Origin: Hymenobacter oligotrophus
GTDB lineage: Bacteria > Bacteroidota > Bacteroidia > Cytophagales > Hymenobacteraceae
Length of the DNA stretch: 64,000 bases
Reading direction: 5' to 3'
NCBI RefSeq assembly: GCF_003574965.1
Contig: NZ_CP032317.1
Coordinates: 3,162,001 to 3,226,000 of the forward strand
Below are positions 391-63,522 of this stretch, piece by piece. Under the pieces are notes generated by a model, which saw nothing but the letters and a program-made list of their open reading frames with translations, was not told the DNA's origin and made no database searches. A program made the position numbers and the translations under genes. Every line of letters begins with the position of its first letter. The stretch's first letter is position 1.

Positions 391-508
391 TATAGGGTCA
401 TTGACTGAGAAACAACCTCAACCACCTAGGGTTAGGAACTATCCGGCCTTGCGCGTACTCTTGTAGCTATTCGGCACCTAGGCAGCCCTGGGCCCGGCGC
501 TTTTTGCT

Positions 509-1237
509 ATGTCCGTTTCCCCGTCTTCGTTGCCCGTTATTCAGGGCGAGGTGCTCGATTTTTACTTAAGCCAGGGCTATTACCGGATGCACCAGGACTT
601 GTTTACCTGCCGGTTTTTGCCCCTCGACGAAAGCCTGTACACGGTGCATTGGCTGCGCCTCGACCTAGGCCGCGTATCGTTTGGCAGCGAGCAGCGCCGC
701 CTGTTGCGCCAGAACAAGCGGTTTACGGCCGTAGTGCGTCCGTTTCGGCTTACTGCCGAGTACGAGGAGTTGTACGCCCGCTACCGCAGCTCCATCACCT
801 TCGATGCGCCCGAAACGGTAGAGGCCTTCTTGCTGGCCGGCGCGCAGCACAACGTATTTACCACCCACGTCATCGAGCTGCGCGACGGGGAACAGCTGAT
901 AGCCGCCGGCATTTTCGACAGCGGCGAGCAGAGCCTGGCGGGCATCATGAACTTCTACGACCCAGCCTACCGCAAGCACAGCCTGGGCAAGCACCTGATG
1001 CTGCTCAAAATCATCTATGCCTTGCAGGAGGACAAGGCCTACTACTACCCGGGCTACGTGGTACACAACTACCCCAAGTTCGATTACAAGCTGTACCCGT
1101 GCCCAGCCGCTACCGAGGTGTACGATTGCGCCACCGGCTACTGGCTGCCTTTCTCCTGGGATGTTGTAGCGGCGCAATCGGCTGAATTGCTGAAGAATTG
1201 GCCGCCTAAGTTCAGCGAAGAAGGGGAGGCGGAGTAA
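509..1237 (+). CDS. Aminoacyl-tRNA--protein transferase-like protein (Bpt/ATE C-terminal domain, GNAT-like)
   Basis: This 242-residue protein resembles the catalytic C-terminal domain shared by arginyltransferases (ATE) and bacterial leucyltransferases (Bpt), which move an amino acid from a charged tRNA to a protein N-terminus in the N-degron pathway. Visible support is the GYYRM opening, a basic RRLLRQNKRF segment, the acetyltransferase-like core LRDGEQLIAAGIFDSGEQS, and the stretch YYYPGYVVHNYPKFDYKLY, which parallels the Bpt/ATE pattern YYYLGYYIxxCPKMxYK. The Cys-rich N-terminal domain of true ATE/Bpt proteins is absent, so it may have another substrate or use another N-acyl donor. It stands alone between the ybeY terminator and the mnmG promoter. 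Start is the first ATG of the frame. Alternative: an unrelated GNAT acyltransferase. Confidence 0.6.
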   Translation: MSVSPSSLPVIQGEVLDFYLSQGYYRMHQDLFTCRFLPLDESLYTVHWLRLDLGRVSFGSEQRRLLRQNKRFTAVVRPFRLTAEYEELYARYRSSITFDAPETVEAFLLAGAQHNVFTTHVIELRDGEQLIAAGIFDSGEQSLAGIMNFYDPAYRKHSLGKHLMLLKIIYALQEDKAYYYPGYVVHNYPKFDYKLYPCPAATEVYDCATGYWLPFSWDVVAAQSAELLKNWPPKFSEEGEAE

Positions 1238-1333
1238 GGTTTTTCAGCACCCTAGGTCGGTAAGCCTGCGCGCGCTACAGCAGCCTTATTGGGCTCATAA
1301 CCAGCTTATCATCTAGGAAAGCGGCGGAGTGCG

Positions 1334-1341
1334 TATCTTTG
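1334..1341 (+). promoter_or_regulatory. Bacteroidota -7 promoter box upstream of mnmG
   Basis: TATCTTTG matches the TAnnTTTG -7 element of the Bacteroidota primary sigma factor. It lies 137 bases before the mnmG ATG. It is flanked by a short GTGCG/CGCAC inverted repeat. No clear -33 TTG at the ideal spacing was seen. Confidence 0.5.
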
Positions 1342-1384
1342 CGCACGTTCTGAGCGGGTTAGACCACAAGTCACTTGATATACG

Positions 1385-1417
1385 AAAACCGTTTCTGCCG
1401 AGCGTAGAAGCGGTTTT
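1385..1417 (+). terminator. Leader hairpin with T-rich tail between the mnmG promoter box and start
   Basis: A 12-bp stem with one G-T wobble (1385-1396 with 1406-1417; arms AAAACCGTTTCT and AGAAGCGGTTTT) is followed by GTGTTTTGG. It lies 44 bases downstream of the TAnnTTTG box and before the mnmG ATG, so it could be a leader attenuator or simply the terminator of the upstream gene. Confidence 0.5.
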
Positions 1418-1477
1418 GTGTTTTGGCACAAAACGCGGGCTAACGCTGTTCATACCCTCCGAAACAACCCTCCAGCT

Positions 1478-3343: not shown

Positions 3344-3426
3344 TTCTGGGCTAAGAAGTTCTCAGTTAAGCACGCTACCGGCACGCGCCCGATTGGCCCC
3401 GTGCGCCGGCGCATTCCGCAAAAGCG

Positions 3427-3434
3427 TATTTTTG
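3427..3434 (+). promoter_or_regulatory. -7 promoter box upstream of the methyltransferase gene
   Basis: TATTTTTG fits TAnnTTTG and lies about 60 bases before the proposed start codon. Because it is inside the longest open frame, it argues that translation starts downstream, at the TTG/GTG near 3492-3495. Confidence 0.5.
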
Positions 3435-3445
3435 CAGCATTCCAG

Positions 3446-3475: not shown

Positions 3476-3494
3476 GTGTCTGAATCCTAGTTTG

Positions 3495-4661: not shown

Positions 4662-6281
4662 ATGTTCGTACGCCCTTATTTGCTGTTGTTGCTGCCCGTG
4701 GGGTTTTGGGTGGCGGGTTGCGCGGCCATTAGCCAGCCCGAAGGCGGCGCCCGCGACACCGTTGCGCCCAAATTTGTGAGCAGTTCGCCCAAAAACGGCG
4801 CTACCAATGTGTCGCAGCAAAGCATTCGGCTGGAGTTTTCGGAGCCCGTGCAGCTGAAGGACCTCAGCAAAAACCTCATCATCACGCCCAGCCTCGCCGA
4901 GGGCAACGAGTACAAAGTGCGCGAGGAGCGCAATGCCATCGAACTGCGTTTCGAGAAGCCCCTCGACGAAAACACCACGTATGTGTTCAACTTCGGGGAG
5001 GCGGTAACCGATATCACCGAGAACAACAAAGCCGCCAACGTGGTGCTGGCATTTAGCACTGGCGCCGCCCTCGACTCGGGCTCGGTAAGCGGCACGGTGG
5101 TGCAGCTGCTCACGGGCCAGCCCGAGGCCGATGCCGTGGTGGCCTTGTACCCCGCCCGCGACACGGCCGACATACGCCGAGCGCGGCCCTACTACCTAGG
5201 GCGCACCGATAAAAGCGGGGCGTTTCGGCTGAACAACCTGCGCGCCGACAATTACCGCCTCTACGCCCTGGTTGACAAAAACCAGAACACCCGCTACGAG
5301 GAGCCCGAGCGCATTGCTTATTTGCCCCAGCCCGTGCAGGTGCAGCCCCGCGCCGATTCGTTGCGGTTGTTTACGGTGCGGCCCGATGCCCGCCGGCCGC
5401 TCATCCAGTCGCAGCAACCCAGCGCGGCGCAGTTCCGCATTGGTTACAACGAAGGCCTGCGCCAACTTACCTTGGCGGCCCTAGGTCAGCCGCCCAAACC
5501 GGAGCAAAACCAGTTGGTGGCACTGGCCGAAAAAGGGCGCACGGCCGTGGTGTACCGCGCCGCCGCTATGCCCGCCGGCCGCTACCTTGTGTCGGCAACC
5601 GATAGCGCCGGCAACGTGGGCCTCGATACGGTGAACGTGCGCTTTGCCGGCGAAACGCTGCCACCGCGCAAGGGCCCGCAGTACCAATTGGCCAACAACC
5701 AGCGCGAAACCCCGGCTACCGGCCAGCTGCGCCTGCAGTTCAACGAGCCGCTGCGTTTGGTCACCAACAAGCCTTTTGCCACGCTGGTAGAAGACTCTAC
5801 CACGCGCCGCCCGTTGCGCGCCCCCGCCGATGGCCAGCTCAGCCCCGACCGCACCCAGCTCATCATTAACCTCAACACGCGCGCCCGCCGCGCCATCAGC
5901 ATTGTGCCCGATAGCACCGCCATTACCGGCGTTACGGGGCAGTCGTTGGGGCTGCGGCCGGTGCGGTTGCGCATAACCGAGCAAGCCACCACCGGCAGCT
6001 TATCGGGCACGGTACAAACCGCGGCCAAGCGTTTCGAGCTGCAACTGCTCGACGACAAATACCAACTGGTGGCCTCGTTGCAAAACCCGCGCACGTTCCG
6101 CTTCGACAACCTGGCGCCCGGCAGCTACCGCCTGCGCGTGCTGGTTGATGCCAACAACGATGGCCGCTGGCAAGGCGGCGACCCGGGCCTGCGCCGCCCG
6201 GCCGAGCCCGTCTGGATTTACCAGCAACCGCTAACGGTGCGCGCCAACTGGGAGGTCGAAGACATCCGTTTCGGCTTCTAG
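4662..6281 (+). CDS. Ig-like-domain lipoprotein (Big_5 domain)
   Basis: A 539-residue lipoprotein of a family widespread in Bacteroidota; function unknown. The N-terminus is a signal sequence with a lipobox, VAGC (about residues 20-23), followed by the family hallmark SQPEGGARDTVAPKFVSSSP and an Ig-like domain (about residues 30-135) containing NGATNVSQQSIRLEFSEPV and NTTYVFNFGEAVTD. A carnitine/CNA-B-like or prealbumin-type domain follows (GSVSGTVVQ..FRLNNLRADNYRLYALVDKN), and a second copy is at the C-terminus (GTVQT..FRFDNLAPGSYRLRVLVDANNDG). The start at 4662 is chosen because it gives an ideal signal peptide; the frame is open to 4581. A strong terminator follows at 6301. Location is inferred to be the periplasmic face of the envelope or the cell surface. 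Confidence 0.8.
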   Translation: MFVRPYLLLLLPVGFWVAGCAAISQPEGGARDTVAPKFVSSSPKNGATNVSQQSIRLEFSEPVQLKDLSKNLIITPSLAEGNEYKVREERNAIELRFEKPLDENTTYVFNFGEAVTDITENNKAANVVLAFSTGAALDSGSVSGTVVQLLTGQPEADAVVALYPARDTADIRRARPYYLGRTDKSGAFRLNNLRADNYRLYALVDKNQNTRYEEPERIAYLPQPVQVQPRADSLRLFTVRPDARRPLIQSQQPSAAQFRIGYNEGLRQLTLAALGQPPKPEQNQLVALAEKGRTAVVYRAAAMPAGRYLVSATDSAGNVGLDTVNVRFAGETLPPRKGPQYQLANNQRETPATGQLRLQFNEPLRLVTNKPFATLVEDSTTRRPLRAPADGQLSPDRTQLIINLNTRARRAISIVPDSTAITGVTGQSLGLRPVRLRITEQATTGSLSGTVQTAAKRFELQLLDDKYQLVASLQNPRTFRFDNLAPGSYRLRVLVDANNDGRWQGGDPGLRRPAEPVWIYQQPLTVRANWEVEDIRFGF

Positions 6282-6300: not shown

Positions 6301-6332
6301 AGCCCCGGCGCCCTAGGTGCCGGGGCTTTTTT
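6301..6332 (+). terminator. Rho-independent terminator with CCTAGG in the loop
   Basis: A 9-bp stem AGCCCCGGC/GCCGGGGCT (6301-6309 with 6319-6327) is followed by five T. The 9-base loop carries the iterated palindrome CCTAGG. Confidence 0.88.
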
Positions 6333-6420
6333 GTGCGCCGGCACCTAGGGCTTGGCGGCCCATCCATATTCGCGGAAGTAACTATACTCTGATTTTCAGC
6401 AGCATTGTTTTGGGCTGATA

Positions 6421-12245: not shown

Positions 12246-14705
12246 ATGTGGAGTAAGCTTGCCCTGCTGATTATCAAGAACCGCCGCCTGCTGGTTGGGC
12301 TGCTGGCCGTGGTTACCGTGTTCATGGCCTGGAAGGCCAAGGACGTGGAAATGACCTACGACTTTGCCCAGGTTGTCTCGCCCGACGACCCGGACATGGT
12401 GTATTTCCAGGAGTTCAAGAAAACCTTCGGCGAAGACGGCAACGTGCTGGTGCTCGGCATGCAGGACAGCTCGGTGTACAAGCTGGGCAACTTCAACGAG
12501 CTGCGCATGCTTACCGATACCCTGGGCAAGGTGGAGGGCGTGAACGGCGTGCTTTCGGTAACCAAGCTAATCCAACTTACCAAGGACACGGCGGGCCAGC
12601 GCTTTGCCGCCGCGCCCATCTTCCGCACGTTTCCGCAAACCCAGAAGGAGCTCGACTCGCTGATGCAGATCGTGAACCGGCAGGAGTTTTACAAAGGGCA
12701 GCTCATCAGCCCCAGCACCGGAGCCACGCTCATGGCCCTTACCATGGACCCCAAGTACCTGAACTCCTCGCGGCGGCAAGCCGTGATGCAGGACATTCTG
12801 GCCCATGCTGAGCGCTTCACGCAAAAAACCGGCATTAAGCTGCACTACGCTGGCCTGCCCTACGTGCGCTCCACCATGACGAGCAAAGTAGCCAGCGAAA
12901 TGAAGTTTTTCCTCATTTTGGCGGCCCTGGTTACCAGCGCCACGCTGCTAGTGTTTTTCCGCACGTGGTCGGCGGTGGTGTTTCCGCTACTGATTGTGGG
13001 CGTGGCCGTTATTTGGTGCGTGGGCACCATTGTGCTGCTGGGTTACAAGATTACCCTGCTCACCGGCCTGATCCCGAGCATCCTCATCGTTATCGGCATC
13101 CCCAACTGCACGTACCTGCTCTCGCGCTACCACTACGACTACCGCATCTCGGGCAACCAGGTGCTGGCCATGGTGCGCGTAGTGCGCAAAATTGGCTTGG
13201 TAACGTTGATGAATAACACGGCCACGGCTACGGGCTTTTTCGTGTTCTGCTTCACCAACATTGCCATTCTGTACCAGTTTGGCTGGGTGGCTACCATCAG
13301 CATTTTTGCGGCGTTCTTTATCTCGATCATCCTCATCCCGATCGTATTTACCTACCTGCCGCCGCCCACGCCCAAGCAGCTGGAGCACCTCGATGCCAAG
13401 CCGCTAACCAAGCTGCTCGAGTTTTTCGACTACTTGGTGCTGGAGCGCCGCGGCCTGGTGTACGGCACCGCCATTGTGCTGTGCGCCCTAGGTGCTTTGG
13501 GGGCCAGCCGGCTGCAGTCGGTGGCGTACATGGTCGACGATCTGCCCAAAAACTCGTCCGTCAACGCCGACCTCAAATTCTTCGAGCAGCACTTCAACGG
13601 CATTATGCCGCTTGAAATCGTGGTGGATACGGGCAAGAAGCGCGGCATTCTAAAGCTGAAAAACCTCGAGCGCATCGACCGGCTCGAGAACTACCTGCGC
13701 ACGCAGCCGGTGCTTACCTCGCCCATCAGCATTGTTACGTTCCTGAAGGCCTCTACGCAGGCTTTCTACAACGGCGACCCGGCTTATTACCGCCTGCCCG
13801 ATAACTCCGAGCGCAACTTTATTCTGAGCTACCTGGCTCGCTCGCAGGGCAAAGAGGGCTCGGGCATGGACAACAAGCTGCTGCGCTCCTTTGCCGACTC
13901 GACGGGCCAGAAAGCGCGCATCTCGCTTAAGATTGCCGACATCGGCTCGCGCAACCTCGATACCCTGTTGCTCAACAAGATTCAGCCCAAAATCCGCGAA
14001 ATCTTCAACGGCACGGGCATGGAGGTGAAGCTCACCGGCACCACCATCCTGTTCACCAAAGGCAATGAGTACATCATTGGTACGCTGCGCAACAGCCTCA
14101 TTCACGCGTTTGGGTTGGTGGGCCTGATCGTGCTGGTGCTGTTCCGCTCCATTCGCTCGGTGTTCTTTACGTTGCTGCCCAACTTCGTTACGCTGCTGCT
14201 CACGGCCGGCCTGATGGGCTACTTCGGCATTGCCCTGAAGCCCGCTACGGCCCTGATCTTCTGCATTGCCCTAGGTATCGACGGCGACAACTCCATTCAC
14301 CTGTTGGCCAAGTTCCGGCAGGAGATGGCCACCAACGGGCGCCGCGTGCGGGCTGCTATCAGCACCACGCTTTCGGAGGCCGGCACCAGCATGATTTACA
14401 CCAGCATCGTGCTCTTCGTTGGCTTCAGCATTTTCGCTTTCTCAGAGTTTGGCGGCACCAAAGCCCTAGGTCTGCTGATGTCGGCCTCGCTGCTGATTAC
14501 CAACTTCTCGAACCTGATTTTGCTGCCCGCGCTGCTGGTAACCTTCGAGCACGGCAAGGACGAAACCATCGACCGCGCCCTCATTCAGCACTACGACGAC
14601 CAGTACCACGAGGAGGACGACGACCTGGAACTAAACCTCGATAAGATGACCGTGCAGCCGCGTTTGCCGCAAGGCTCGCAACCCGACCGCGGTGCCAACG
14701 TCTAG
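12246..14705 (+). CDS. MMPL/RND-superfamily transporter
   Basis: An 819-residue inner-membrane protein of the RND superfamily, in the group annotated as predicted exporters or HpnN/MMPL-like proteins. Such proteins move lipids, hopanoids or other hydrophobic molecules using the proton gradient; the substrate here is unknown. The topology is two repeats, each with one membrane span, a large periplasmic domain, and a block of about five spans (SSD-like): spans near residues 15-30, 220-375, 405-420 and 615-790. Visible segments include YDFAQVVSPDDPDMVYFQEF early in loop 1 and LGIDGDNSIHLLAKFRQEM in the second block, where the acidic residues fit the proton-relay position. The C-terminal tail is acidic (HEEDDDLELNLDK). 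It appears to be a single-gene unit with its own promoter box. Confidence 0.85.
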   Translation: MWSKLALLIIKNRRLLVGLLAVVTVFMAWKAKDVEMTYDFAQVVSPDDPDMVYFQEFKKTFGEDGNVLVLGMQDSSVYKLGNFNELRMLTDTLGKVEGVNGVLSVTKLIQLTKDTAGQRFAAAPIFRTFPQTQKELDSLMQIVNRQEFYKGQLISPSTGATLMALTMDPKYLNSSRRQAVMQDILAHAERFTQKTGIKLHYAGLPYVRSTMTSKVASEMKFFLILAALVTSATLLVFFRTWSAVVFPLLIVGVAVIWCVGTIVLLGYKITLLTGLIPSILIVIGIPNCTYLLSRYHYDYRISGNQVLAMVRVVRKIGLVTLMNNTATATGFFVFCFTNIAILYQFGWVATISIFAAFFISIILIPIVFTYLPPPTPKQLEHLDAKPLTKLLEFFDYLVLERRGLVYGTAIVLCALGALGASRLQSVAYMVDDLPKNSSVNADLKFFEQHFNGIMPLEIVVDTGKKRGILKLKNLERIDRLENYLRTQPVLTSPISIVTFLKASTQAFYNGDPAYYRLPDNSERNFILSYLARSQGKEGSGMDNKLLRSFADSTGQKARISLKIADIGSRNLDTLLLNKIQPKIREIFNGTGMEVKLTGTTILFTKGNEYIIGTLRNSLIHAFGLVGLIVLVLFRSIRSVFFTLLPNFVTLLLTAGLMGYFGIALKPATALIFCIALGIDGDNSIHLLAKFRQEMATNGRRVRAAISTTLSEAGTSMIYTSIVLFVGFSIFAFSEFGGTKALGLLMSASLLITNFSNLILLPALLVTFEHGKDETIDRALIQHYDDQYHEEDDDLELNLDKMTVQPRLPQGSQPDRGANV

Positions 14706-14853: not shown

Positions 14854-17800
14854 ATGAAATACCCCGAATACAAACAGCCCTTCAACTACGCCCAAGTAGG
14901 CGCCGACATCCTGCGTTGGTGGCAGGAAAACGGCATTTTCGAGAAGAGCGTGAGCACCCGCGAAGGGCGCCCCAGCTTCGTGTTCTACGAGGGCCCGCCC
15001 TCGGCCAACGGCGCGCCGGGCATTCACCACGTAATGGCCCGTACGGTGAAAGACATCTTCTGCCGTTACCAAACGCTCAAGGGTTTTCAGGTAAATCGCA
15101 AGGGCGGCTGGGATACCCACGGCCTGCCCATTGAACTGCAGGTAGAGAAGGAGCTGGGCATTACGAAGGAGGACATCGGGAAGAAGATTACGGTTGAGGA
15201 GTACAACCAGCGCTGCCGCGAAACGGTAATGCGCTTTAAGCACCAGTGGGACGAGCTGACGGAGAAGATGGGCTACTGGGTTGACCTCTCCGACCCGTAC
15301 ATCACCTTTGAGCCCGCGTACATCGAAAGCTGCTGGGCTTTGCTCAAGAAGCTCTACGACAAGGGTTTGCTCTACAAGGGCTACACCATTCAGCCATACT
15401 CCCCGGCCGCCGGTACGGGCTTGTCCTCGCACGAGTTGAACCAGCCCGGCACCTACAAGGACGTGAAGGACACGACCATCGTGGCCGAGTTCGAGGTGAA
15501 GCGCAATGAGCAATCGGAGAAGCTGTTTGCCTTGGCCGATAGCTTGCCCGTGTTCATCCTAGCTTGGACGACCACGCCCTGGACTTTGCCCGCCAACACC
15601 GGCCTAGCCGTGGGCAAAAACATCCGCTACGCCGTGGTGCGCACCTTCAACCCCTATACCCGCGAGCCTCAGGTAGTGGTGCTGGCCAAGGATTTGCTCG
15701 GCCGTCACTTCTCCGAAAAGGGCGCCGAAGCCTCGCTGGATGAGTACAAAGCCGGCGACAAAGTGCTGCCCTGGCGGCAACTGGCCGAATTCAGCGGCGC
15801 CGAACTGGTGGGCATTAGCTACCAGCGCTTGTTTGGCACGGAAGCTGGCTTCCCGGCATTCGAAGGGGAGGAGCGGGCCTTCCGCGTTATTCCCGGCGAC
15901 TTTGTAACGACCGAGGACGGCACCGGTATCGTGCACATTTCGCCTACGTTTGGTGCCGACGACTTCCGGGTAGCGCAGCAAAACGACATTCCGGCTTTGC
16001 TGGTAGCCGACGACCAGGGTAAGTTCGGTCCCATTGTCGACCGCACCGGCCGCTATGTGGCCCAAATGGGCGAATTCGGCAGTCGTTGGGTGAAAAACTA
16101 CGACGGCCACGACGAATCGGCCGCCGAATACCGCACACTCGATGTCGATATCAGCGTGCGCCTGAAGGAGCGCGGTCGGGCCTTTAAGGTGGAAAAGTAC
16201 GAGCATACCTACCCGCACTGCTGGCGTACGGACAAGCCCGTGCTGTACTACCCCCTGGACTCGTGGTTTATCAAGACCACGGCCGTGAAGGACCGCCTCA
16301 TCGAGCTCAACAAAACCATCAACTGGAAGCCCGAAAGCACCGGCACCGGCCGCTTTGGCAACTGGCTTGAAAACCTGGTCGACTGGAACCTGAGCCGCTC
16401 GCGCTACTGGGGCACGCCGCTGCCCATCTGGCGCACGCAGGATGGCTCGGAGGAAATCTGCATCGGCTCCATTGCCGAGCTGAGCGCCGAAATCGACAAA
16501 GCCGTAGCTGCACAGGTGATGACGCATAACCCCATCAAGAGCGGGGAAATGACCGATTTACACCGGCCCTACGTCGACGACATCTTCCTGGTATCGCCTT
16601 CGGGCCAGCCGATGTACCGCGAAACCGACCTCATCGACGTGTGGTTCGACAGCGGCGCCATGCCCTACGCGCAGTGGCATTACCCCTTCGAAAACCACGA
16701 CACTTTTGAGCGCAACTTCCCGGCCGATTTCATTGCCGAAGGCGTCGACCAAACCCGCGGCTGGTTCTTCACGCTGCACGCCCTAGGGGTAATGCTTGAA
16801 GACTCGGTAGCTTTCAAAAACGTGATTGCCAACGGCCTGGTACTCGATAAGAACGGCAACAAGATGTCGAAGCGCCTCGGCAACGCCATCGACCCGTTCA
16901 AAACCATCGACCAATACGGACCCGACGCCACCCGTTGGTACATGATTGCCAATGCCCAGCCCTGGGACAACCTCAAGTTCGACCTCGCGGGCATTACGGA
17001 GGTGCAGCGCCGCTTCTTCGGCACGCTGTTCAACACCTACTCGTTCTACGCCCTCTACGCCAACCTCGACGAGTTTCAGACCCGCGAGTTCGACCGCGTG
17101 TCCTTAACCGAGCTGTCGGAGCTGGACCGTTGGATTCTCTCCAAACTGCAGTCGTTAATTCTCGAAGCGCGCGGCCATTTCGACAACTACGACCCCACGA
17201 AAGCGGCCCGCGCCATTCAGGATTTCGTTACCGATCAGCTCTCCAACTGGTACGTGCGCCTCTCGCGCGGCCGTTTCCGCAAAGGTGAGCTGACTGCCGA
17301 TAAGCAGGCTGCCTTCGAGACCCTGCAGGAGTGCTTGGTGGTGGTAGCGCAGCTGATGTCGCCCATTGCGCCCTTCTTCGCCGAGTGGCTTTACAAGAAC
17401 ATGACCGACGGCATGCGCGCCGAGGCCATGGAGAAAAACACGCCCTTGCGCCACGAATCGGTGCACCTCTCGGAGCTGGTAGAGGTCGAGGAAGACCTTA
17501 TTGACAAGGCATTGGAGGAGCGCATGGACTTGGCGCAGCGCATCAGTTCGCTCACGCACTCGCTGCGGAAGAAATCGGGTATTAAGGTGCGGCAACCGCT
17601 GCAGCGCATACTGGTGCCGGTGCTTACCGAAACCACGCGCGAGCAAGTAGGGCAGGTAGAGGACCTGATTTGCGCCGAGGTGAACGTGAAGCACGTGGAG
17701 TTCCTCGACGATACCAGTGGCGTGCTGGTGAAGTCGGTGAAGCCCAACTTCAAGCGCCTAGGTCAGCAGTTTGGCCCGCGCCTGAAGGCCGTAGCTGCTC

Positions 17801-18258
17801 GCATTCAGCAAATGACTTCGGAGGAAATTGCTGAGCTGGAAAAAGCCGGCCAATTGGCGGTAGAGGTTGATGGTCAGGCAGTAACGCTTACGCCCGAAGA
17901 CGTCGAAATCCGGACCGAAGATTTGCCTGGCTGGTTGGTAGCCACCGACGGCCCGCTCACCGTAGCCCTCGACGTTACCCTAACCGACGAGCTGCGCCAC
18001 GAGGGCGTGGCCCGTGAGCTGGTGAACCGCCTGCAAAACTTGCGCAAGGATTCGGGCCTGGAGGTGCAGGATAAAATCCGCGTAACCCTAGGTGCCGATC
18101 AGCCCGAGCTGGTGCAGGCAGTAGAGGCGTTTGGCGAGTACATCCGCACCGAAACGCAGGCCTTATCGCTCGACCTGGTCAGCGGTGTAGCCGATGGCGC
18201 CGTGCTCGAATTTGACGAGTACAGTGTGCCAGTGCGCCTAGAGGTCGTAAAAAGCTGA
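14854..18258 (+). CDS. ileS: Isoleucine--tRNA ligase
   Basis: A 1134-residue class Ia synthetase charging tRNA-Ile. The HIGH-type motif is GPPSANGAPGIHHVMA (about residues 48-63) and the KMSKS motif is NGNKMSKRLGNAIDPF (about residue 668). Between them is the CP1 editing domain (AWTTTPWTLPANTGLAVG and GTGIVHISPTFGADDF). The C-terminal part is the anticodon-binding and DUF5915-type extension seen in the long, eukaryote-like IleS2 class, which is usual for Bacteroidota and, in that class, associated with natural mupirocin tolerance (family knowledge, not tested here). The upstream 148 bases hold no convincing promoter box. lspA follows after about 225 bases. Confidence 0.97.
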   Translation: MKYPEYKQPFNYAQVGADILRWWQENGIFEKSVSTREGRPSFVFYEGPPSANGAPGIHHVMARTVKDIFCRYQTLKGFQVNRKGGWDTHGLPIELQVEKELGITKEDIGKKITVEEYNQRCRETVMRFKHQWDELTEKMGYWVDLSDPYITFEPAYIESCWALLKKLYDKGLLYKGYTIQPYSPAAGTGLSSHELNQPGTYKDVKDTTIVAEFEVKRNEQSEKLFALADSLPVFILAWTTTPWTLPANTGLAVGKNIRYAVVRTFNPYTREPQVVVLAKDLLGRHFSEKGAEASLDEYKAGDKVLPWRQLAEFSGAELVGISYQRLFGTEAGFPAFEGEERAFRVIPGDFVTTEDGTGIVHISPTFGADDFRVAQQNDIPALLVADDQGKFGPIVDRTGRYVAQMGEFGSRWVKNYDGHDESAAEYRTLDVDISVRLKERGRAFKVEKYEHTYPHCWRTDKPVLYYPLDSWFIKTTAVKDRLIELNKTINWKPESTGTGRFGNWLENLVDWNLSRSRYWGTPLPIWRTQDGSEEICIGSIAELSAEIDKAVAAQVMTHNPIKSGEMTDLHRPYVDDIFLVSPSGQPMYRETDLIDVWFDSGAMPYAQWHYPFENHDTFERNFPADFIAEGVDQTRGWFFTLHALGVMLEDSVAFKNVIANGLVLDKNGNKMSKRLGNAIDPFKTIDQYGPDATRWYMIANAQPWDNLKFDLAGITEVQRRFFGTLFNTYSFYALYANLDEFQTREFDRVSLTELSELDRWILSKLQSLILEARGHFDNYDPTKAARAIQDFVTDQLSNWYVRLSRGRFRKGELTADKQAAFETLQECLVVVAQLMSPIAPFFAEWLYKNMTDGMRAEAMEKNTPLRHESVHLSELVEVEEDLIDKALEERMDLAQRISSLTHSLRKKSGIKVRQPLQRILVPVLTETTREQVGQVEDLICAEVNVKHVEFLDDTSGVLVKSVKPNFKRLGQQFGPRLKAVAARIQQMTSEEIAELEKAGQLAVEVDGQAVTLTPEDVEIRTEDLPGWLVATDGPLTVALDVTLTDELRHEGVARELVNRLQNLRKDSGLEVQDKIRVTLGADQPELVQAVEAFGEYIRTETQALSLDLVSGVADGAVLEFDEYSVPVRLEVVKS

Positions 18259-21716: not shown

Positions 21717-24293
21717 ATGAGAAGAAACCATGACTCGGCCGATGCGCCGCGCCCCTCGCGCGACCCGGCCCGCCGCCGTGATGCAGCCGCTCCGGCTCCC
21801 CTGTCGAAAACCCAAGTGTTCCGGATTTTTTCCGAGAACCCAGGCAAGGTGTTCAGCTACCGCCAGATTTCGCGCCGCCTAGGTGTCGTGAGCAAAGAGC
21901 AGCGCGAGGAGGTGTTTCACTACCTCAAGGACCTTAAGCGAAGCGGGCACATTGCCTTGCTCCAGAACGACGATTACCGCCTGGTGGAGCTGCCGGGTCG
22001 CTCCTTCAACGAGCGCCCCGACAACGACAAGCCCGCCCGCGACCGTGGCCCCAAGCGCGGCAAATTTGACCCCGGCTTTGTGGCCGAATTGGGCCAAGAG
22101 CCCGTGACGCATCGCCGCCGCACGCCCGGCTTCGACTTCCCTGGCACCACCGACCGCACCCACCGCCCCGGCAACTACCGGCACCGCGAGAATGGCGCCG
22201 GCGGACAGGAAATTACCGGCACCGTCGACCTGGCCAACAACAAGTACGCCTACATCGTGAGCGAAGAGCTCAGCGAAGATCTGCGCGTGTACACCGACCG
22301 CCTTGGCTTTGCCCTCGACGGTGACACCGTGCGGGTGCGCCTAGGCAAAGCCCGCGACGGCCGCCCCTCGGGCGACGTGGTGGAGGTAGTGGAGCGCCGC
22401 AAGGAAGAAGTAGTCGGCCGCCTGATGATGCAGGCTGGCTTCGGCTTTGTGCAGCCCGACAACAAGCGCATCTACTTCGATGTGTTTGTGCCCGGCCACG
22501 CGTTTGCCGATGCCAAGAACGGCGACAAAGTGCTCGTGAAGATTACCGAATGGCCCGACGAGTTTGGCCGCCAGCCGGTGGGCGAAGTGCTGCGCAGCTT
22601 TGGCGCGGCCGGGGAGCACGAGGCCGAGATCCACGCCATCATGGCGGAGTTCGGTTTGCCCTTCGAGTTTCCCGAAGAAGTAGAGCGCGAGGCCAACGAA
22701 ATTCCGGCCAACATCTCGGCCGAGGAAATTGCCAAGCGCCGCGACTTCCGCGACATCACCACTTTCACCATCGACCCCGTCGATGCCAAAGACTTCGACG
22801 ATGCCCTCTCCTTGCGCAAGCTCGAGAACGGCAACTGGGAAGTAGGTGTGCACATCGCCGACGTGACGCACTACGTGCTGCCCGGCACCCGCCTCGAGAA
22901 GGAAGCCCATTGGCGGGCCACCTCGGTCTACCTCGTCGACCGCACCATCCCGATGCTGCCCGAGCGCCTCTCCAACGGCCTATGCTCGCTGCGCCCACAC
23001 GAAGACAAGCTGACTTTCTCGGCCGTGTTCGAGCTCGACGAGCAAGGCAAGCTCTACGACGCGTGGTTTGGCCGCACCGTGATTCACTCCGACCGCCGCT
23101 TCACTTACGAGGAGGCGCAGGAGCGCATTGAGTCGGGCGAGGGCGACTTTGCCGACGAGGTAAACCTGCTCAACCGCATTGCCAAGGAGTTGCAGGCGGC
23201 CCGTTTCCGCAAGGGCGCCATCAGCTTTGAGGCTCCCGAGGTGAAGTTTAAGCTCGACGAGCACGGCAAGCCCGTGGGCGTGTATGTGAAGGAGCGCAAG
23301 GACGCGCACAAGCTGATTGAGGAGTTTATGCTGCTCGCCAACCGCAAAGTGGCTGAGTTTGTGTACCGCCTCAAAAAGACGAAGCCGCGCTTCACGATGG
23401 TATACCGCACCCACAACGCCCCCGACCCCGAACGGCTCGAGAACTTCGCGCTGTTTGCCCGCCAGTTTGGCTACGACCTGAACCTAGGCGAAGACGCCAA
23501 CGTGAGCAAGGAGCTGAACAAGCTGACTGCTGAGGTAGAAGGCAAGCCCGAGCAGTCGGTGATTCAGGCGCTGGCCGTACGCTCCATGGCCAAGGCTATT
23601 TACACCACCGAAGCCCTAGGTCACTTCGGCCTGGCTTTCGACCACTACTCGCACTTCACCTCGCCCATCCGTCGCTACCCCGACATGATGGCCCACCGCC
23701 TGCTCGAGCACTACCTGCAGGGCGGCAAGAACGTGGATGCCGAGGAGCTAGAAGAAGACTGCAAGCACTCTTCGGAACGTGAGAAGCGGGCTGCCCAAGC
23801 CGAGCGCGCCAGCATCAAATACAAGCAAGTCGAGTTTATGGCCGAGCATGTAGGCGAAACGTTCACCGGCGTGGTTTCGGGCCTTACCGAGTGGGGCCTG
23901 TACGTGGAGATGGGCGAAACCAAGAGCGAAGGAATGGCCCGCCTGGCCGATATTCAGGAAGACTTTTTCGAGCTCGACAAGGAGAACCTGCGCATTATTG
24001 GCCGCAACACGGGCCGCATCATTCGCTTCGGCGACGAGGTGAAGGTGATCATCAAAGCTGCCAACTTGCTCGACCGTACCATCGACCTGGAGCTGGTGTC
24101 GTTGCCGCGCAATGCCGGCCGCGCTGCCCGCCCCCGCGAAGAGTTCGGCGACCGGGCTCCGCGCCAGCGCCCCAGCGGCCGCGGTGTGGCAGGTGGTACT
24201 GGCGGCGATGGCCGCTCGCGCCGCGAAGGCGGCCGCTCGGCTTCCGACAAGCCCAAGCCCAAAGGCAAAGGCCGCAGCCGCTACCACGGCTAA
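21717..24293 (+). CDS. rnr: Ribonuclease R (RNB-family 3'-5' exoribonuclease)
   Basis: RNase R degrades structured RNA processively from the 3' end, including rRNA and tmRNA-tagged messages. About 858 residues. Order of domains: a disordered basic head, a winged-helix domain (KTQVFRIFSENPGKVFSYRQ, about 30-80), two cold-shock domains (for example TGTVDLANNKYAYIVSEE and RLMMQAGFGFVQPDNKRI), the RNB catalytic domain with the metal-binding Asp cluster TIDPVDAKDFDDALS (about residue 350) and FDHYSHFTSPIRRYPD (about 645), an S1 domain (GETFTGVVSGLTEWGLYVEM) and a Gly/Arg/Lys tail suited to RNA binding. The ATG at 21717 (MRRNHDSADAPR) is preferred; the frame is open to 21615 but that part is unlike the family. 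A terminator follows. Confidence 0.94.
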   Translation: MRRNHDSADAPRPSRDPARRRDAAAPAPLSKTQVFRIFSENPGKVFSYRQISRRLGVVSKEQREEVFHYLKDLKRSGHIALLQNDDYRLVELPGRSFNERPDNDKPARDRGPKRGKFDPGFVAELGQEPVTHRRRTPGFDFPGTTDRTHRPGNYRHRENGAGGQEITGTVDLANNKYAYIVSEELSEDLRVYTDRLGFALDGDTVRVRLGKARDGRPSGDVVEVVERRKEEVVGRLMMQAGFGFVQPDNKRIYFDVFVPGHAFADAKNGDKVLVKITEWPDEFGRQPVGEVLRSFGAAGEHEAEIHAIMAEFGLPFEFPEEVEREANEIPANISAEEIAKRRDFRDITTFTIDPVDAKDFDDALSLRKLENGNWEVGVHIADVTHYVLPGTRLEKEAHWRATSVYLVDRTIPMLPERLSNGLCSLRPHEDKLTFSAVFELDEQGKLYDAWFGRTVIHSDRRFTYEEAQERIESGEGDFADEVNLLNRIAKELQAARFRKGAISFEAPEVKFKLDEHGKPVGVYVKERKDAHKLIEEFMLLANRKVAEFVYRLKKTKPRFTMVYRTHNAPDPERLENFALFARQFGYDLNLGEDANVSKELNKLTAEVEGKPEQSVIQALAVRSMAKAIYTTEALGHFGLAFDHYSHFTSPIRRYPDMMAHRLLEHYLQGGKNVDAEELEEDCKHSSEREKRAAQAERASIKYKQVEFMAEHVGETFTGVVSGLTEWGLYVEMGETKSEGMARLADIQEDFFELDKENLRIIGRNTGRIIRFGDEVKVIIKAANLLDRTIDLELVSLPRNAGRAARPREEFGDRAPRQRPSGRGVAGGTGGDGRSRREGGRSASDKPKPKGKGRSRYHG

Positions 24294-25689: not shown

Positions 25690-26331
25690 ATGGACATCGA
25701 CCTTGTAGTGCTGCTAATCATCGTTACCAGCGGCATTTCCATTTACGCCTGGCAAAACCATTCGCTGCTCGAGCGTTGGATTTTCAGCCCGTACCGCGTG
25801 CAGAAAAACCGCGAGTACCACCGCTTCCTCACGTCGGGCTTTCTGCACGCCGACTGGATGCACCTCATCTTTAACATGTTTTCGTTTTACTCGTTTGGCC
25901 AGCTCGTGCTTCAGCGCATGCAAATCGAGTTCGGCGGATTGAACGGCATGTTGGTGTTTCTACTGCTTTACGTCGGCGGCATTATCGTGTCGGATATTCC
26001 TACCTTCTTCCGGCACCGCCGCGATGCGCGCTACGTCAGCCTAGGTGCTTCGGGCGGGGTGGCCTCGGTCATTTTTGCGGCCGTGCTGTTTTACCCGGTA
26101 GCGCCCGAGGGTGGTGGCATCCTCATCTTTCCCATCCCGTTCCGCATTCAGCCGTTTGTGTTCGGCTTCCTATACTTGGCCTACTCCTACTACCAAGGCC
26201 GCCGTATGGGCGACAACATCAACCACGACGCGCACTTCTACGGCGCGCTCTACGGCGTGGTGCTCACCATGCTCATCAACCCACAGGCTGGGTTGGATTT
26301 CTGGCAGCAAATAAGTGATAAGTATTTGTAA
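25690..26331 (+). CDS. Rhomboid family intramembrane serine protease
   Basis: A 213-residue inner-membrane protease predicted to cleave transmembrane substrates inside the lipid bilayer. Six spans are apparent. Catalytic features: the serine in LGASGGVASVIFA (GxSG motif, about residue 120) and the histidine in INHDAHFYGALYGV (about residue 178). HRFLTSGFLHADWMHLIFNMFS is the conserved early segment with the His and Asn that shape the oxyanion site. It follows the polyprenyl synthase by about 50 bases, perhaps in one transcript. Substrates cannot be inferred. Confidence 0.92.
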   Translation: MDIDLVVLLIIVTSGISIYAWQNHSLLERWIFSPYRVQKNREYHRFLTSGFLHADWMHLIFNMFSFYSFGQLVLQRMQIEFGGLNGMLVFLLLYVGGIIVSDIPTFFRHRRDARYVSLGASGGVASVIFAAVLFYPVAPEGGGILIFPIPFRIQPFVFGFLYLAYSYYQGRRMGDNINHDAHFYGALYGVVLTMLINPQAGLDFWQQISDKYL

Positions 26332-46022: not shown

Positions 46023-47885
46023 ATGAAATCAATCCTGCTTAGCGCCGGCCTCGGCAGCTTACTGGCTTATGGCGCCCACGCGCAAACTCCTGCCACCGGC
46101 ACCTACCGCATTACCGTCGACACGCAGCCCGCTGCCAGCTCCGATCAGTTGCGCGTCATCATCCAGACGCCACCCGTGCGCGATGAGCGCGTAACGTACG
46201 TGATGCCGAGCGTGGTGCCCGGCTCGTACTCCAAAAAGGATTACGGCCGCTTTGTGCAAAGTTTGAAAGCATTCGACGAGCGGGGCAAGGCGCTGAAGGT
46301 GACGCGCGAAGGCCAGAACCTGTTTACCATCGACAAAGCCACCAAGCTCGCCCGCATCGAGTACCTCGTGGATGACACCTGGGATGCCAAGCAGGACGAC
46401 AGCTACATCTTTCAGCCGGGCGGTACCAACTTCGACGCCCGCTCGCCCTTCCGCAACTTCGTGCTGAACCACTACGGGCTGTACGGCTACCTCGAGGGCT
46501 ACAAAATGGTGCCTTACGAAGTAACCGTGAAGCACGCGCCCGAGCTCTACGCCAGCACCGCGCTGCCGGTGCAGCGCTCGGCCACGCAGGATGTATTTCG
46601 GGCCGATAGCTACGTAACCCTGGCCGATGGCCCCATCCTGTACAGCAAGCCCGATACCACCAGCTTTGTGGCCGGTGGGGCGCGCATTGGCGTGTCGGTA
46701 GTATCGGAGCTGGGCAAGGTAAAAGCGGCGCAAATCAGCCAAACCATGCGCCCGATGGCCGAAGCCCTAGGTCAGTTTTTTGGGAAGATGCCGGTACCCA
46801 ACTACCAGTTCCTGATGTACTTCCCCGATTACCAAACCTCACAGGTAATCAACCGCAGCACGGGCGGCTTCGGGGCCATGGAGCACTCGTACTCGTCGTT
46901 GTACTTTTTGCCCGAGCGCAACACCGAAGCCGAGCTGACGGAAATGGTGCGCGAGGTGGCTTCGCACGAGTTTTTGCACATGCTGGCCCCGCTGAACATC
47001 CACTCCCGCGAAATCGGCGAGTTCGATTTTCGCAACCCCAAAATGTCGCAGCACCTGTGGCTGTACGAGGGCGTGACGGAGTACTTCGCCCACTTGGTGC
47101 AAGTGCGGGCCGGACTCACTACCGAAGAGCAGTTCCGCGGCACCATGCAGGAGAAAATCCGCGACGCGGAGAAATACCCGGCTGGCGTGTCGTTTACGGA
47201 AATGAGCCGCCGCATTCTGGAGTCGCCCTACGACAAAATGTACGAAAACGTATACAAGAAGGGCGCGCTCATTGGTTTGCTGCTCGATATCCGCATTCAG
47301 GAGCTTACCAAAGGTCAGAAAACCCTCCGCGACGTGCTGCTGACCCTGCGCGACAAGTACGGCCCCACGCGCTCCTTCGAAGATGCGCAGCTAATACCGG
47401 AGGTAGTAGCCCTCACGCACCCCGATGTGCAGCAGTTCTTCGACCGCTACGTGGTGGGCACCGAAGCCCTGCCGCTAACCGAGTACCTCGACAAAATTGG
47501 CTGGCGCTACGCCGATAAAGCCCCGGCCCGCATCAAAGCATTTGGGCAGCTAGGGTTCCGCTACGACGAGGCCAAAAAGGAGTTTGCCGCTGCCGACGTA
47601 ACGGCCGAAACCAATGCTTTTGGCCTGCAGAACGGCGACGTGATTGTGGCCGTAAATGGCAAGCCCGTAACGCTCGACACGGCCGAGCAACTGCTGCGCC
47701 CCTTGGTAGAGCCCGCCACCGATACGCCCGTGCGCCTCACGCTGCGCCGCGGCGCAGCCACCAAGGAGGCCCAAGCCGCGCCGCGCGAGTTCGATGTAGA
47801 AATCCGGAACCACCTGGCCCCCAACCCTACGCCCACGCCGGCACAGCTGGCCCTGCGTCGGCAGCTGCTCAACAGCAAAAGCTAA
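46023..47885 (+). CDS. M61-family metallopeptidase with PDZ domain
   Basis: A 620-residue secreted or periplasmic peptidase of the M61 (glycyl aminopeptidase-like) family. It has a signal peptide (SILLSAGLGSLLAYGAHAQ, cleavage near residue 20), an N-terminal beta domain (YVMPSVVPGSYSKKDYGRF), a gluzincin catalytic domain with zinc motif ASHEFLHMLAPLNIHS (HExxH, about residues 314-318), and the downstream Glu in LWLYEGVTEYFAHLV. A PDZ domain lies near the C-terminus (FRYDEAKKEFAAAD, QNGDVIVAVNGKPVT). The ATG at 46023 is used. It stands as a single gene, ended by a strong bidirectional terminator. Confidence 0.92.
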   Translation: MKSILLSAGLGSLLAYGAHAQTPATGTYRITVDTQPAASSDQLRVIIQTPPVRDERVTYVMPSVVPGSYSKKDYGRFVQSLKAFDERGKALKVTREGQNLFTIDKATKLARIEYLVDDTWDAKQDDSYIFQPGGTNFDARSPFRNFVLNHYGLYGYLEGYKMVPYEVTVKHAPELYASTALPVQRSATQDVFRADSYVTLADGPILYSKPDTTSFVAGGARIGVSVVSELGKVKAAQISQTMRPMAEALGQFFGKMPVPNYQFLMYFPDYQTSQVINRSTGGFGAMEHSYSSLYFLPERNTEAELTEMVREVASHEFLHMLAPLNIHSREIGEFDFRNPKMSQHLWLYEGVTEYFAHLVQVRAGLTTEEQFRGTMQEKIRDAEKYPAGVSFTEMSRRILESPYDKMYENVYKKGALIGLLLDIRIQELTKGQKTLRDVLLTLRDKYGPTRSFEDAQLIPEVVALTHPDVQQFFDRYVVGTEALPLTEYLDKIGWRYADKAPARIKAFGQLGFRYDEAKKEFAAADVTAETNAFGLQNGDVIVAVNGKPVTLDTAEQLLRPLVEPATDTPVRLTLRRGAATKEAQAAPREFDVEIRNHLAPNPTPTPAQLALRRQLLNSKS

Positions 47886-47906
47886 CAAGCACCTAGGGCT
47901 TATCCG

Positions 47907-47950
47907 CAAACAAACGTGCCGGCGACTACTCTTGCCGGCACGTTTGTTTG
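47907..47950. terminator. Bidirectional terminator
   Basis: A perfect 17-bp stem (47907-47923 with 47934-47950; core ACGTGCCGGC) with a 10-base loop, ending in A-rich/T-rich flanks (CAAACAAACG and CGTTTGTTTG). It serves both the M61 gene and the leftward gene. Confidence 0.88.
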
Positions 47951-52824: not shown

Positions 52825-52872
52825 GCAGCGCCCCGGCACCTAGGCCACTTGACCTAGGTGCCGGGGCGCTGC
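52825..52872 (-). terminator. Terminator with CCTAGG in both arms
   Basis: A perfect 20-bp stem (52825-52844 with 52853-52872; core GCGCCCCGGCACCTAGG) with an 8-base loop. On the minus strand it is followed by TTTTTAATT, so it ends the leftward gene starting at 53284. Confidence 0.88.
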
Positions 52873-58285: not shown

Positions 58286-58306
58286 TTGTTGCTTGGTTGA
58301 TGTGGA

Positions 58307-61693: not shown

Positions 61694-61703
61694 GTTCAAT
61701 AGC

Positions 61704-62516
61704 CTAGTTGGCCAATTCATTATACAGGGCGTAGTATGAGCTAAGCAGGTTCTCGTCGTCGGCCACTTGGCCAAGGCTATGGCGCTGGGCGTATTCTTGA
61801 AACAGCGCGTTCAGGTTTTCGCTGAAATCTTCGTCGGAGCGTACCACCGAATCGGCGTATTCCATGCCAATCTTCACAAAACCCGTAAAGTCGGCCGATT
61901 GCAAGGCTGCCAGCATCGAGTCGTCGATATCAAGCATTTTGGCCTTCTCGATGATGTCGCCTTCGAATTTGTAATCGAACTCGTTGTTGTAAACGGTAAA
62001 GATCGACTTCGCATCTTTGAAGATGGGGTCTTTCTTGTACGTCGTTTTGAGGTACAACGGCATCAGGCCCGTCATCCAGTCGTTGCAGTGCACGATGTCG
62101 GGGGCCCAACCAAGTTTCTTGACGGTTTCGAGCACACCTTTGCAGAAAAAGATAGCGCGCTCGTCGTTATCGGCGTGGAACTGGTCGTTCTTGTCGCGCA
62201 ATACCGACTTGCGGTGGAAGTAATCTTCGTTATCGATGAAGTATACTTGCAGCTTTGCGTTCGGAATAGAGGCCACTTTGATAATGAGCGGCTTTTCGTC
62301 CTCGCCTACGGCAATGTTGATGCCCGACAAGCGCACCACCTCGTGCAGGCGGTTTTTGCGTTCGTTGATAATGCCGAAGCGGGGTACGAAAATGCGGATT
62401 TCCATCCCCATCTCTTGCATGCCTTGCGGCAGGCGCCGCAGGAACTCCGCTACCCGGGTCGTTTGCAAAAACGGATTGATTTCCGTGGCAGCATAGAGAA
62501 TTCTCAGCTTCGACAT
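61704..62516 (-). CDS. Glycogen/starch synthase catalytic (GT5) domain only
   Basis: A 270-residue protein corresponding to the N-terminal GT5 half of bacterial glycogen synthase. Seen: KLRILYAATEINPFLQTTRV, GMEIRIFVPRFGIINERKN, YFIDNEDYFHRKSVLRDKND, FCKGVLETVKKLGWAPDIVH, CNDWMTGLMPLYLKTTYKKD and DAKSIFTVYNNEFDYKFEGD. The ADP-glucose-binding KxGGL motif expected near residue 15 is absent (FLQTTRVAEFLRR), and the C-terminal GT1 domain is missing, so ordinary glycogen synthase activity is doubtful. This short form, in this place beside panC and DUF4270, is conserved in Bacteroidota as I recall, suggesting a real but different function. It is divergent from panC. Confidence 0.78.
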   Translation of the reverse strand: MSKLRILYAATEINPFLQTTRVAEFLRRLPQGMQEMGMEIRIFVPRFGIINERKNRLHEVVRLSGINIAVGEDEKPLIIKVASIPNAKLQVYFIDNEDYFHRKSVLRDKNDQFHADNDERAIFFCKGVLETVKKLGWAPDIVHCNDWMTGLMPLYLKTTYKKDPIFKDAKSIFTVYNNEFDYKFEGDIIEKAKMLDIDDSMLAALQSADFTGFVKIGMEYADSVVRSDEDFSENLNALFQEYAQRHSLGQVADDENLLSSYYALYNELAN

Positions 62517-62603
62517 ACGGGGTTAATGGAGAAGTTAGGAAAAGGAAACACCATTGGGACGCACAAAATTAAACAATTTTGCCCGATAAATCCACTATGC
62601 TTA

Positions 62604-62619
62604 CCCCGGACGTCCGGGG
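62604..62619. repeat. Short perfect palindrome before panC
   Basis: CCCCGGACGTCCGGGG is a perfect 16-bp palindrome in the panC leader, 14 bases before the ATG. It could be an operator or a leader hairpin. Confidence 0.45.
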
Positions 62620-62632
62620 CCGTCTGCCTGAC

Positions 62633-63487
62633 ATGGAGATACTTGAAACCGCCGCCGCGTTGCAAGCCCTTACCGAAAAATGGCGCCGCGAAGGCCGCAG
62701 CATCGGCTTAGTGCCCACTATGGGTGCCCTACACGAGGGTCATTTGCAACTGGTGCGCACCGCCGCCGCCCAAAACGACGAGGTGGTGGTAAGCATATTT
62801 GTGAACCCCACGCAGTTCAACAACAGCGAAGATTTCAAATTATATCCCCGCGTACCCGATTCGGATGCGGAAATGCTGCGCGGAACCGGCTGCACTGTTT
62901 TGTTTACGCCCACGGTGGAGGAGGTGTACCCGCGCCCCACGGTGCTGCAGTTTAATTTCGGGGCGCTGGAGAACGTGATGGAAGGCGCGCACCGGCCGGG
63001 CCACTTCAACGGGGTGGCTACTGTGGTGAGCAAGTTGTTTCACCTAGGGCGCCCGCACCGCGCGTACTTCGGGCAGAAGGATTGGCAACAAGTGGCCGTG
63101 GTGCGCCAGTTGGTGCAAGACTTAAGTTTTGACCTGGACTTGATTAGCTGCCCAACCATTCGCGAAACCGATGGCCTGGCTATGTCGTCGCGCAACCGGC
63201 GGCTTTCGCCCGAAGCGCGGGCCGTGGCCCCGCGCCTGTACGAGGCCTTGCAGCTGGCCGCTGCACAGCTCCAACACACCCGGCAGCCGGAGCTAGCGCA
63301 ACAAGCGGCGCTGGACTTCCTAGGTGCCTACCCGCAAATTGAAGTGGAGTACCTGCAAGTGGCCGACGCCCGTTTGCTGCAACCACTGCCGGCCGGTACG
63401 GAGCCTGGGCAAGAAGCCGTGATTTGCTTGGCGGCGTGGCTCGGTGGCGTGCGCCTGATTGACAACGTGGTACTCTTGCTTACCTAG
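62633..63487 (+). CDS. panC: Pantothenate synthetase (pantoate--beta-alanine ligase)
   Basis: PanC (284 residues) joins pantoate and beta-alanine with ATP to make pantothenate. Seen: [20 protein letters not shown] (HxGH nucleotide-binding, about residues 24-43), [60 protein letters not shown] and [20 protein letters not shown] with the KMSKS-like MSSRN. The start at 62633 ([10 protein letters not shown]) is chosen as the family start; the frame is open to 62579. panD follows 70 bases downstream with its own promoter box, so pantothenate and its beta-alanine are made from adjacent genes; coaX for the next step is also in the window. Confidence 0.96.
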
Positions 63488-63522
63488 GGCTGGCACCCGC
63501 GGCAGAGCGGGGCTTATTTGCG

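Follow-up and report, generated by a model that had tools for sequence, protein, structure and literature searches.

Whether a short word comes to saturate a genome by selection, by biased uptake or by mutation is an old argument, held over the DNA uptake sequences (DUS) of the Neisseriaceae, the uptake signal sequences (USS) of the Pasteurellaceae, and HIP1, the highly iterated palindrome (HIP) of cyanobacteria. Here we describe such a word, CCTAGG, in a Hymenobacter genome (G000; four contigs, 4,188,814 bases), starting from the window, the whole 64-kb stretch C1:3162001-3226000 (G+C 58.9%, where an earlier reading of the letters without database searches, the sequence-only reading, gave 60-62%). 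As described in the sections of PMC3630211 that deal with them, uptake words are short and asymmetric, lie about one per kb in and between genes, form inverted pairs, and vary as dialects–all traits that the Hymenobacter word shares–and the N. meningitidis DUS 10-mer is present about 1,900 times. The parts of PMC2346458 on uptake sequences add an orientation bias in genes and a gene-end bias in Pasteurellaceae, and those of PMC4390886 on HIPs and methyltransferases present HIP1 and the alternative HIPs as words at 1,000-2,000 per Mb, in genes at synonymous sites and sporadic among relatives, which the Hymenobacter word resembles in these respects and in its palindromic core. We consider it plausible, although just short of probable, that CCTAGG is the core of a self-DNA signal with dialects, similar to a DUS; its features suggest a label for recognition of own DNA rather than a DNA-methylation mark. 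No report of a CCTAGG word in Hymenobacter was found in the open-access literature searched.

The window contains exactly 94 copies of CCTAGG (1.47/kb; first start at 425, last copy at 63483-63488) against a base-composition expectation of 20.3, confirming the sequence-only count of about 94 and its expectation near 20, and among the 64 palindromic hexamers CCTAGG ranks first in excess over base composition. The whole genome has 5,678 copies in 4.19 Mb (1.36/kb, or 1,356 per Mb, about one per 0.74 kb), and the much lower genome-wide density named in advance as counting against the word is not seen; the abundance lies within the hundreds to thousands per Mb typical of HIPs, and the over-representation runs along the chromosome at near one per kb, as for DUS and USS. 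The reversed control GGATCC is absent from the window and present 67 times in the whole genome. On both strands of 424 kb of chromosome there are 1,178 copies of CCTAGG, about eight times the order-2 Markov expectation of 144 (order 4, 974), and when hexamers with 40 or more copies are ranked, it comes first in over-representation under both the order-1 and the order-2 model. For the window the expectations are 11.1 (order 2), 20.5 (order 3) and 79 (maximal order), or 3.5-7.0 when the models are estimated after site removal. The sequence-only reading had offered the maximal-order model as the decisive comparison, and 79 is indeed near the observed 94, but we set this null aside as circular because the pentamers CCTAG and CTAGG mostly consist of the CCTAGG site itself. 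Shuffling synonymous codons within genes yields 40 +/- 5.6 copies (40 shuffles, maximum 54), against 365 coding copies observed. As a separate observation, GATC is scarce, at about one per kb in the window and in L001-L018.

The repeated unit in the window's lineage is not the palindrome first proposed but an asymmetric 8- to 11-mer, S-CCTAGG-T, in most cases with a T on one side and G or C on the opposite one; the preferred context CCCTAGGTGC given by the sequence-only reading was correct, and is itself asymmetric. On one strand or the other, SCCTAGGT accommodates 75 of the 94 window copies (45 +, 30 -) and 304 of 369 in-gene sites in a sample of the genome. T on both flanks and G on both flanks are strongly depleted, in genes and between them: relative to independent flanks, ACCTAGGT occurs 7 times in genes with 78 expected and 8 times between genes (186 sites) with 46 expected, and CCCTAGGG 2 times with 27 expected and once with 20 expected. 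The depletion of GCCTAGGC, a word listed as under-represented in one genome in the portion of PMC1939737 concerned, is not clear (16 vs 19.8 in genes; 1 vs 3.9 between genes). The intergenic consensus is GCCCTAGGTGC. Inside genes 173 copies point in the direction of the gene and 131 in the opposite direction, with one direction also commoner in a separate count (193 vs 153, p=0.036); as both orientations occur, the meaning of the codons is not the source of the flank rule. The word is thus non-palindromic, like DUS and USS, in the window's genome, where no palindromic unit of the HIP kind is found, but not in H. cavernae.

Genes were called with a home-made hexamer caller, so that starts and intergenic edges are approximate; with these calls the density is 2.93/kb between genes and 1.03/kb within them (188 and 369 of 589 sites, with 32 on edges), and reaches 4.37 per kb in convergent, 3.48 in tandem and 2.15 in divergent intergenic regions. 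Codon-pair preference is therefore rejected as the cause, since the intergenic density exceeds the coding density. The 369 in-gene copies are read mostly as (C)CTA-GG (336), and otherwise as CCT-AGG (33). Among 20 close pairs 20-40 bp apart, two were left out of the orientation count with one member unoriented, and 14 of the other 18 are convergent (p=4e-6), many of these folding as hairpins. Predicted intergenic terminators hold CCTAGG in 13 of 141 cases in 424 kb (a hairpin being counted once per scoring strand); the copies in terminator loops reported by the sequence-only reading are real but a minority, and inverted pairs, often at terminators, are also a feature of DUS and USS. An Rfam search of the window gave 0 matches, as did a search of IMG/VR viral contigs for a motif hairpin.

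Some DNA is poor in the word. There are 2 copies in the 82.6 kb read of contigs C2-C4; in the chromosomal stretch L015 there are 7 copies in 20 kb, with none in predicted genes beyond 8.3 kb, and in L250, around a type I methyltransferase, 2 copies in 17 kb. Contig C2 (L019) partly matches heavy-metal efflux plasmids (RND, P-type ATPase) of other Hymenobacter at 79-89% identity (ten rows); the 25 matches listed are all partial and, apart from one Spirosoma record, fall on plasmids of other Hymenobacter. L015:11536-19029, on the chromosome near 2.81 Mb, is a graspetide-like peptide locus with an MvdD-type pre-ATP-grasp domain, DUF6734, a C39-peptidase ABC exporter and an HlyD protein.

A chromosomal binding site for a nucleoid, segregation or recombination protein, either Chi-like or architectural, would agree with the chromosome-wide spread, the conserved positions and the asymmetry of the word, but we regard it as distinctly unlikely: SCCTAGGT is found 2,332 times forward and 2,350 times reverse genome-wide (4,682 in total), with no replication-strand bias, the orientation of CCTAGG is unrelated to GC skew across 19 stretches, the spacing of copies is near Poisson (coefficient of variation 0.94), and to be lacking in sister species is not typical of core chromosome machinery. 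Chi follows the leading strand. Polarity of this kind was looked for and not found, and although the word resembles Chi as an asymmetric over-represented octamer, SCCTAGGT differs in lacking orientation with replication and in number, with 4,682 copies against the 1,008 Chi sites in E. coli given in the portion of PMC1939737 on Chi.

Carriage of the word is sporadic. In a survey of 204 Hymenobacteraceae genomes from six genera, 13 have more than 1,000 copies (nine of them more than 5,000, up to 8,806), eight have 500-999, and the other 183 fewer; the 13 belong to two of the six genera, g1 (that of the window) and g5, and 22 genomes of the order outside the family have 0-136 SCCTAGGT per strand. 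Within one genus the copy number ranges from 5,325-6,212 to 123-249, a 21- to 50-fold difference. The region orthologous to the window carries 83 copies in 66.8 kb in G007 and 88 in 67.8 kb in G005, compared with 94 in the 64 kb of the window, 1-4 copies in 36-74 kb in five non-carriers of the genus, and 0 in 23 kb in H. gummosus, the closest named record among the matches listed for the window IleRS (92% identical). In an IleRS tree (one gene, 48 rows) the carriers fall in separate groups–G000/G005/G007; G109, G125 and G140, with low-copy G083 and G161 beside G140; G070/G158/G076; and G080, G082, G164 and G172–and in the window's genus the tree gives no branching order at the fork that joins carriers and six non-carrier rows. 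Around IleRS, G125 is nearer to G140 in its DNA (86.0%) than are G161 (85.7%) and G083 (82.8%), which disagrees with the tree, and for this reason and that of the fork the tree does not decide between gain and loss. G140 and G125 have most compared site positions in common, but as permissive positions are saturated, parallel gains are also likely for these shared sites. As an observation on another hexamer, the frequency of CTCGAG in the sister non-carriers (L117-L118, L120-L135, L021) is about nine-fold below that in the window's genome, as though they avoided it.

The flanks differ among carriers on an unchanged core, in samples of 49-88 sites (G005, G007, G125, G140, G109, G070), 30-35 (G158, G076) and 7-15 (G080, G082, G172, G164). 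The outward flanks are T, G and C with the one-T rule in G000, G005 and G007, and similar with weaker asymmetry in G125 and G140; they are T-rich in G158 and G076, G (62%) or C (29%) in G109, and C (55-71%) in G080, G082, G172 and G164. In G070, which matches H. cavernae, T makes up 76%, the flanks look independent, ACCTAGGT is commonest, and the asymmetry is absent. Differences of this type correspond to the dialects seen among relatives with DUS and USS, small as these samples are.

Copies are maintained at synonymous sites, and the sequence-only description of a genome-wide, highly iterated word of HIP1-like abundance held at such sites is supported by the copy number, the codon shuffling and the persistence of codons. 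As that reading had claimed, CCTAGG accounts for many CTA leucine codons of the window, 58 of 154 being in a C-CTA-GG context; CTA is used in 58 of 85 Leu codons in the C-Leu-GG context versus 96 of 1,852 elsewhere. In-word CTA codons are kept in 46 of 58 cases in G007 and 39 of 58 in G005, other CTA codons in 21 of 96 and 16 of 96. In-gene CCTAGG is kept at 45 of 60 (G007) and 40 of 60 (G005) sites, where other hexamers of equal composition are kept at 53% and 55%, and between genes at 13 of 26 and 16 of 26, against 36% and 40%. The share of Leu-Gly pairs with CCTAGG is 33% in G000, 30% in G005, 40% in G007, 44% in G140, 46% in G125, 30% in G109 and 35% in G070, and 1-2% in the non-carriers G002, G003, G004 and G006; Pro-Arg is written CCT-AGG in 33 of 345 cases in G000 vs 0 of 217 in the same four non-carriers. 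The word appears to have changed protein sequence too: an orthologous 158-kb region has 9.05-9.51 Leu-Gly per 1,000 codons where the word is carried (three genomes) and 7.55-7.98 in four non-carriers (a shorter stretch in G003), the compared species not being independent samples.

The sites in the window are given below, where + denotes SCCTAGGT, - denotes ACCTAGGS, and the remainder are termed other; start numbers are those of CCTAGG in the window.

425..63488, no single strand: the CCTAGG set, 94 copies, 75 of 94 fitting SCCTAGGT on one strand
+ strand, 45 starts: 1251, 4576, 5480, 6312, 6995, 8263, 10876, 11575, 11823, 13487, 14270, 14465, 17757, 18087, 19118, 19497, 20400, 21584, 21878, 23615, 25206, 26040, 27900, 31931, 32075, 33536, 33865, 36981, 37071, 39457, 40119, 40992, 41631, 42414, 43287, 45086, 45969, 46766, 49948, 51032, 54352, 55236, 55700, 57063, 58722
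Strand -, 30 starts: 425, 477, 664, 3944, 4461, 5195, 6344, 10486, 11658, 19932, 23483, 24621, 28470, 33598, 36442, 38014, 42141, 42726, 43958, 47892, 48995, 49298, 51096, 52839, 53761, 55563, 56526, 57174, 63043, 63483
Other, 19 starts: 2284, 3067, 6477, 16782, 22340, 24409, 24464, 24804, 26782, 32897, 37633, 45922, 46014, 52011, 52853, 53296, 56400, 57577, 63319
6301..6333, + strand: predicted terminator hairpin with the word in the loop and stem top, then a T run
6311..6350, both strands: convergent pair of CCCTAGGT (6312, +) and ACCTAGGG (6344, -), reading GCCCTAGGTGC...GCACCTAGGGC
13486..13493, + strand: CCCTAGGT, intact in carriers G007 and G005; six aligned non-carrier rows differ at 1-3 of the eight positions
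16781..16788, other: CCCTAGGG in ileS, a rare copy flanked by S on either side, which G007 and G005 retain intact and six aligned non-carrier rows lack
18086..18093, + strand: CCCTAGGT in ileS, intact in G007 and G005 and altered in 6 of 6 aligned non-carrier rows
21877..21884, + strand: GCCTAGGT, where 6 of 6 aligned non-carrier rows have CCTCGG, so that the site was made by a transversion
26039..26046, + strand: GCCTAGGT, in the window only, a recent gain; G007 and G005 read CCTGGG
47881..47907, - strand: predicted terminator with one copy (47892)
52825..52872, - strand: predicted terminator with two copies (52839, 52853)

The routes by which copies arise bear on the leading alternative to uptake, a conversion or repair drive specific to the motif, in which an endonuclease or mismatch-repair enzyme would turn near-cognate sites into CCTAGG during replication or recombination with no benefit to the cell. 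Among the three carriers of the window's lineage, 100 sites are present in all three, 73 are missing from one, and 60 are in one alone. Recent gains, defined as copies in one carrier where the other two agree in lacking it, number 17 (43 of the 60 one-carrier sites being left out with the other two carriers differing), and 13 of the 14 made by a single change are CCTGGG or CCCAGG to CCTAGG; nothing else speaks as strongly for some contribution of mutation or conversion. The sporadic presence of the word also fits such a drive, as does CCCAGG being the only one-off neighbor below 0.8 of its non-carrier frequency, but hexamers in general span 0.53-1.73 (5-95%), which takes in its ratio of 0.69, and the remaining neighbors are not reduced, several being raised (CCTAGA 2.14, CCTAGC 1.71), as site decay would give. 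The three carriers share 49 older sites at which three or more outgroups are aligned; the outgroups agree on a hexamer at 22, which were used, and the 27 mixed ones were left out. Of the 22, 10 differ from the outgroup hexamer at one position, 10 at two and 2 at three, so that 12 of them required two or three changes each, with several types among these changes. The folded changes are 16 central C>T, 10 outer G>C, 5 central G>T and 5 others, and the central ratio of 16 to 5 is near the baseline elsewhere of 739 C>T to 287 C>A. The flank rule, moreover, would require an asymmetric enzyme; no enzyme of that kind was found, no search having been aimed at one, and altogether we think conversion drive unlikely. 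Mutational drive, one of the roles raised by the sequence-only reading, is weakened likewise, as a single bias fails on the flank rule and on the sites needing two or three changes. The recent gains look like the product of Dcm-type deamination at CCAGG, but this was set aside: G000 has no PF00145 match, and the window has few copies of ACTAGG, GCTAGG and TCTAGG (1, 9 and 5).

Methyltransferase-guided marking, also raised there, corresponds to a HIP proper, in which the sites are marked by a methyltransferase specific for CCTAGG, and repair guided by the methylation both produces and preserves them (Elhai's model). The METHYLTRANSFERASES survey covered ten genomes–carriers G000, G005, G007, G070, G125, G140 and G109, and non-carriers G001, G003 and G083–with families PF00145, PF01555, PF02384, PF07669 and PF02086, and seven enzymes were classified. 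No enzyme of these five Pfam families is common to the seven carriers searched, other families and the six further carriers lying outside the search. G000 has HsdM together with an MmeI-like enzyme of type IIG that scores under the PF07669 cut-off and is clear with MmeI models; G007 has a single match in all five families (PF01555), not present in G000, and an MmeI-like enzyme may lie below threshold; G140 and G070 each have one type IIG enzyme of one PADLOC model, and G005, G125 and G109 have several others. In the ten genomes PF00145 is found only in G005, G070 and non-carrier G001, and PF02086 only in non-carrier G003. The MmeI-like enzymes of G000 and G005 (L243, L244) match in 91-99 per 100 alignment columns in blocks 100-800 and 1000-1100, and in 56 and 44 per 100 in 800-1000, approximately the Pfam target-recognition domain, which from the alignment looks like a specificity swap between two close species that carry the same motif; non-carrier G001 has an ortholog. 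With no enzyme in common, no single methyltransferase seen explains the carriers, and the marking proposal loses most of its ground. The palindromic core, the HIP-like abundance, the symmetric flanks in H. cavernae, and the sporadic replacement among relatives, reported for alternative HIPs in the sections of PMC4390886 concerned, all speak for a HIP, but the unit is asymmetric in the window's lineage, a cognate methyltransferase in each genome is not found in the families and carriers searched, the HsdM of G000 sits in the motif-poor stretch L250, and the organism is not a cyanobacterium; we judge this explanation very unlikely.

Of the roles offered by the sequence-only reading, a binding protein survives best. 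In the uptake reading, CCTAGG would supply the core of a recognition word that is asymmetric and saturates the genome (S-CCTAGG-T in the window's lineage, GCCCTAGGTGC between genes), and a DNA receptor of the transformation machinery would prefer DNA that bears it. Kin DNA would then be preferentially taken up and recombined, such that copies spread and are kept at tolerant positions, and other Hymenobacter lineages would use other flanks as dialects. In support of uptake we note the density in the DUS/USS range, the asymmetry in both coding orientations and between genes, the intergenic enrichment and convergent pairs, the lineage-specific flanks on one core, the scarcity on small contigs, the retention of CTA codons, the orientation excess in genes, and comEC, part of the transformation channel expected with DUS and USS. 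comEC matches are present in 19 of 20 genomes, including all 13 carriers (no stops) and 6 of 7 others, the miss being G161, which is 82% complete.

Several points weigh against uptake. As comEC is also in non-carriers, it permits uptake but does not discriminate; recent single-change gains are nearly all of one kind; the asymmetry is weaker in G125 and G140 and absent in H. cavernae; and presence flips between close relatives faster than expected of DUS. No gene-end bias of CCTAGG, the Pasteurellaceae trait, was found, and the word differs further from DUS and USS in its palindromic core and in its phylum. No protein that reads the word was found, no search by sequence having been aimed at a receptor. 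The literature searches turned up no uptake word in Bacteroidota; the transformation genetics in the relevant part of PMC8459023 point to machinery in Riemerella unlike that of Neisseria, and in the corresponding part of PMC7965970 R. columbina prefers its own DNA, with a k-mer table listing A/T-rich words of unproven role.

Our tentative proposal, which we hold as possible rather than probable, is that an uptake code for self-DNA arose in Hymenobacter, perhaps more than once: its CCTAGG core would be constant and its flanks particular to each lineage, some species would have it where their sisters lack it, and it would have raised the Leu-Gly content of proteins by nearly a fifth. If true, it would be an uptake-sequence system in the Bacteroidota. 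With species of the same genus 21- to 50-fold apart in copy number, and other lineages having the same core with other flanks, the driver should be findable by presence and absence, and the same contrasts among species make the uptake idea directly testable. Here a signal at the level of DNA reshapes the choice of codons and, apparently, the dipeptide content of proteins as well.

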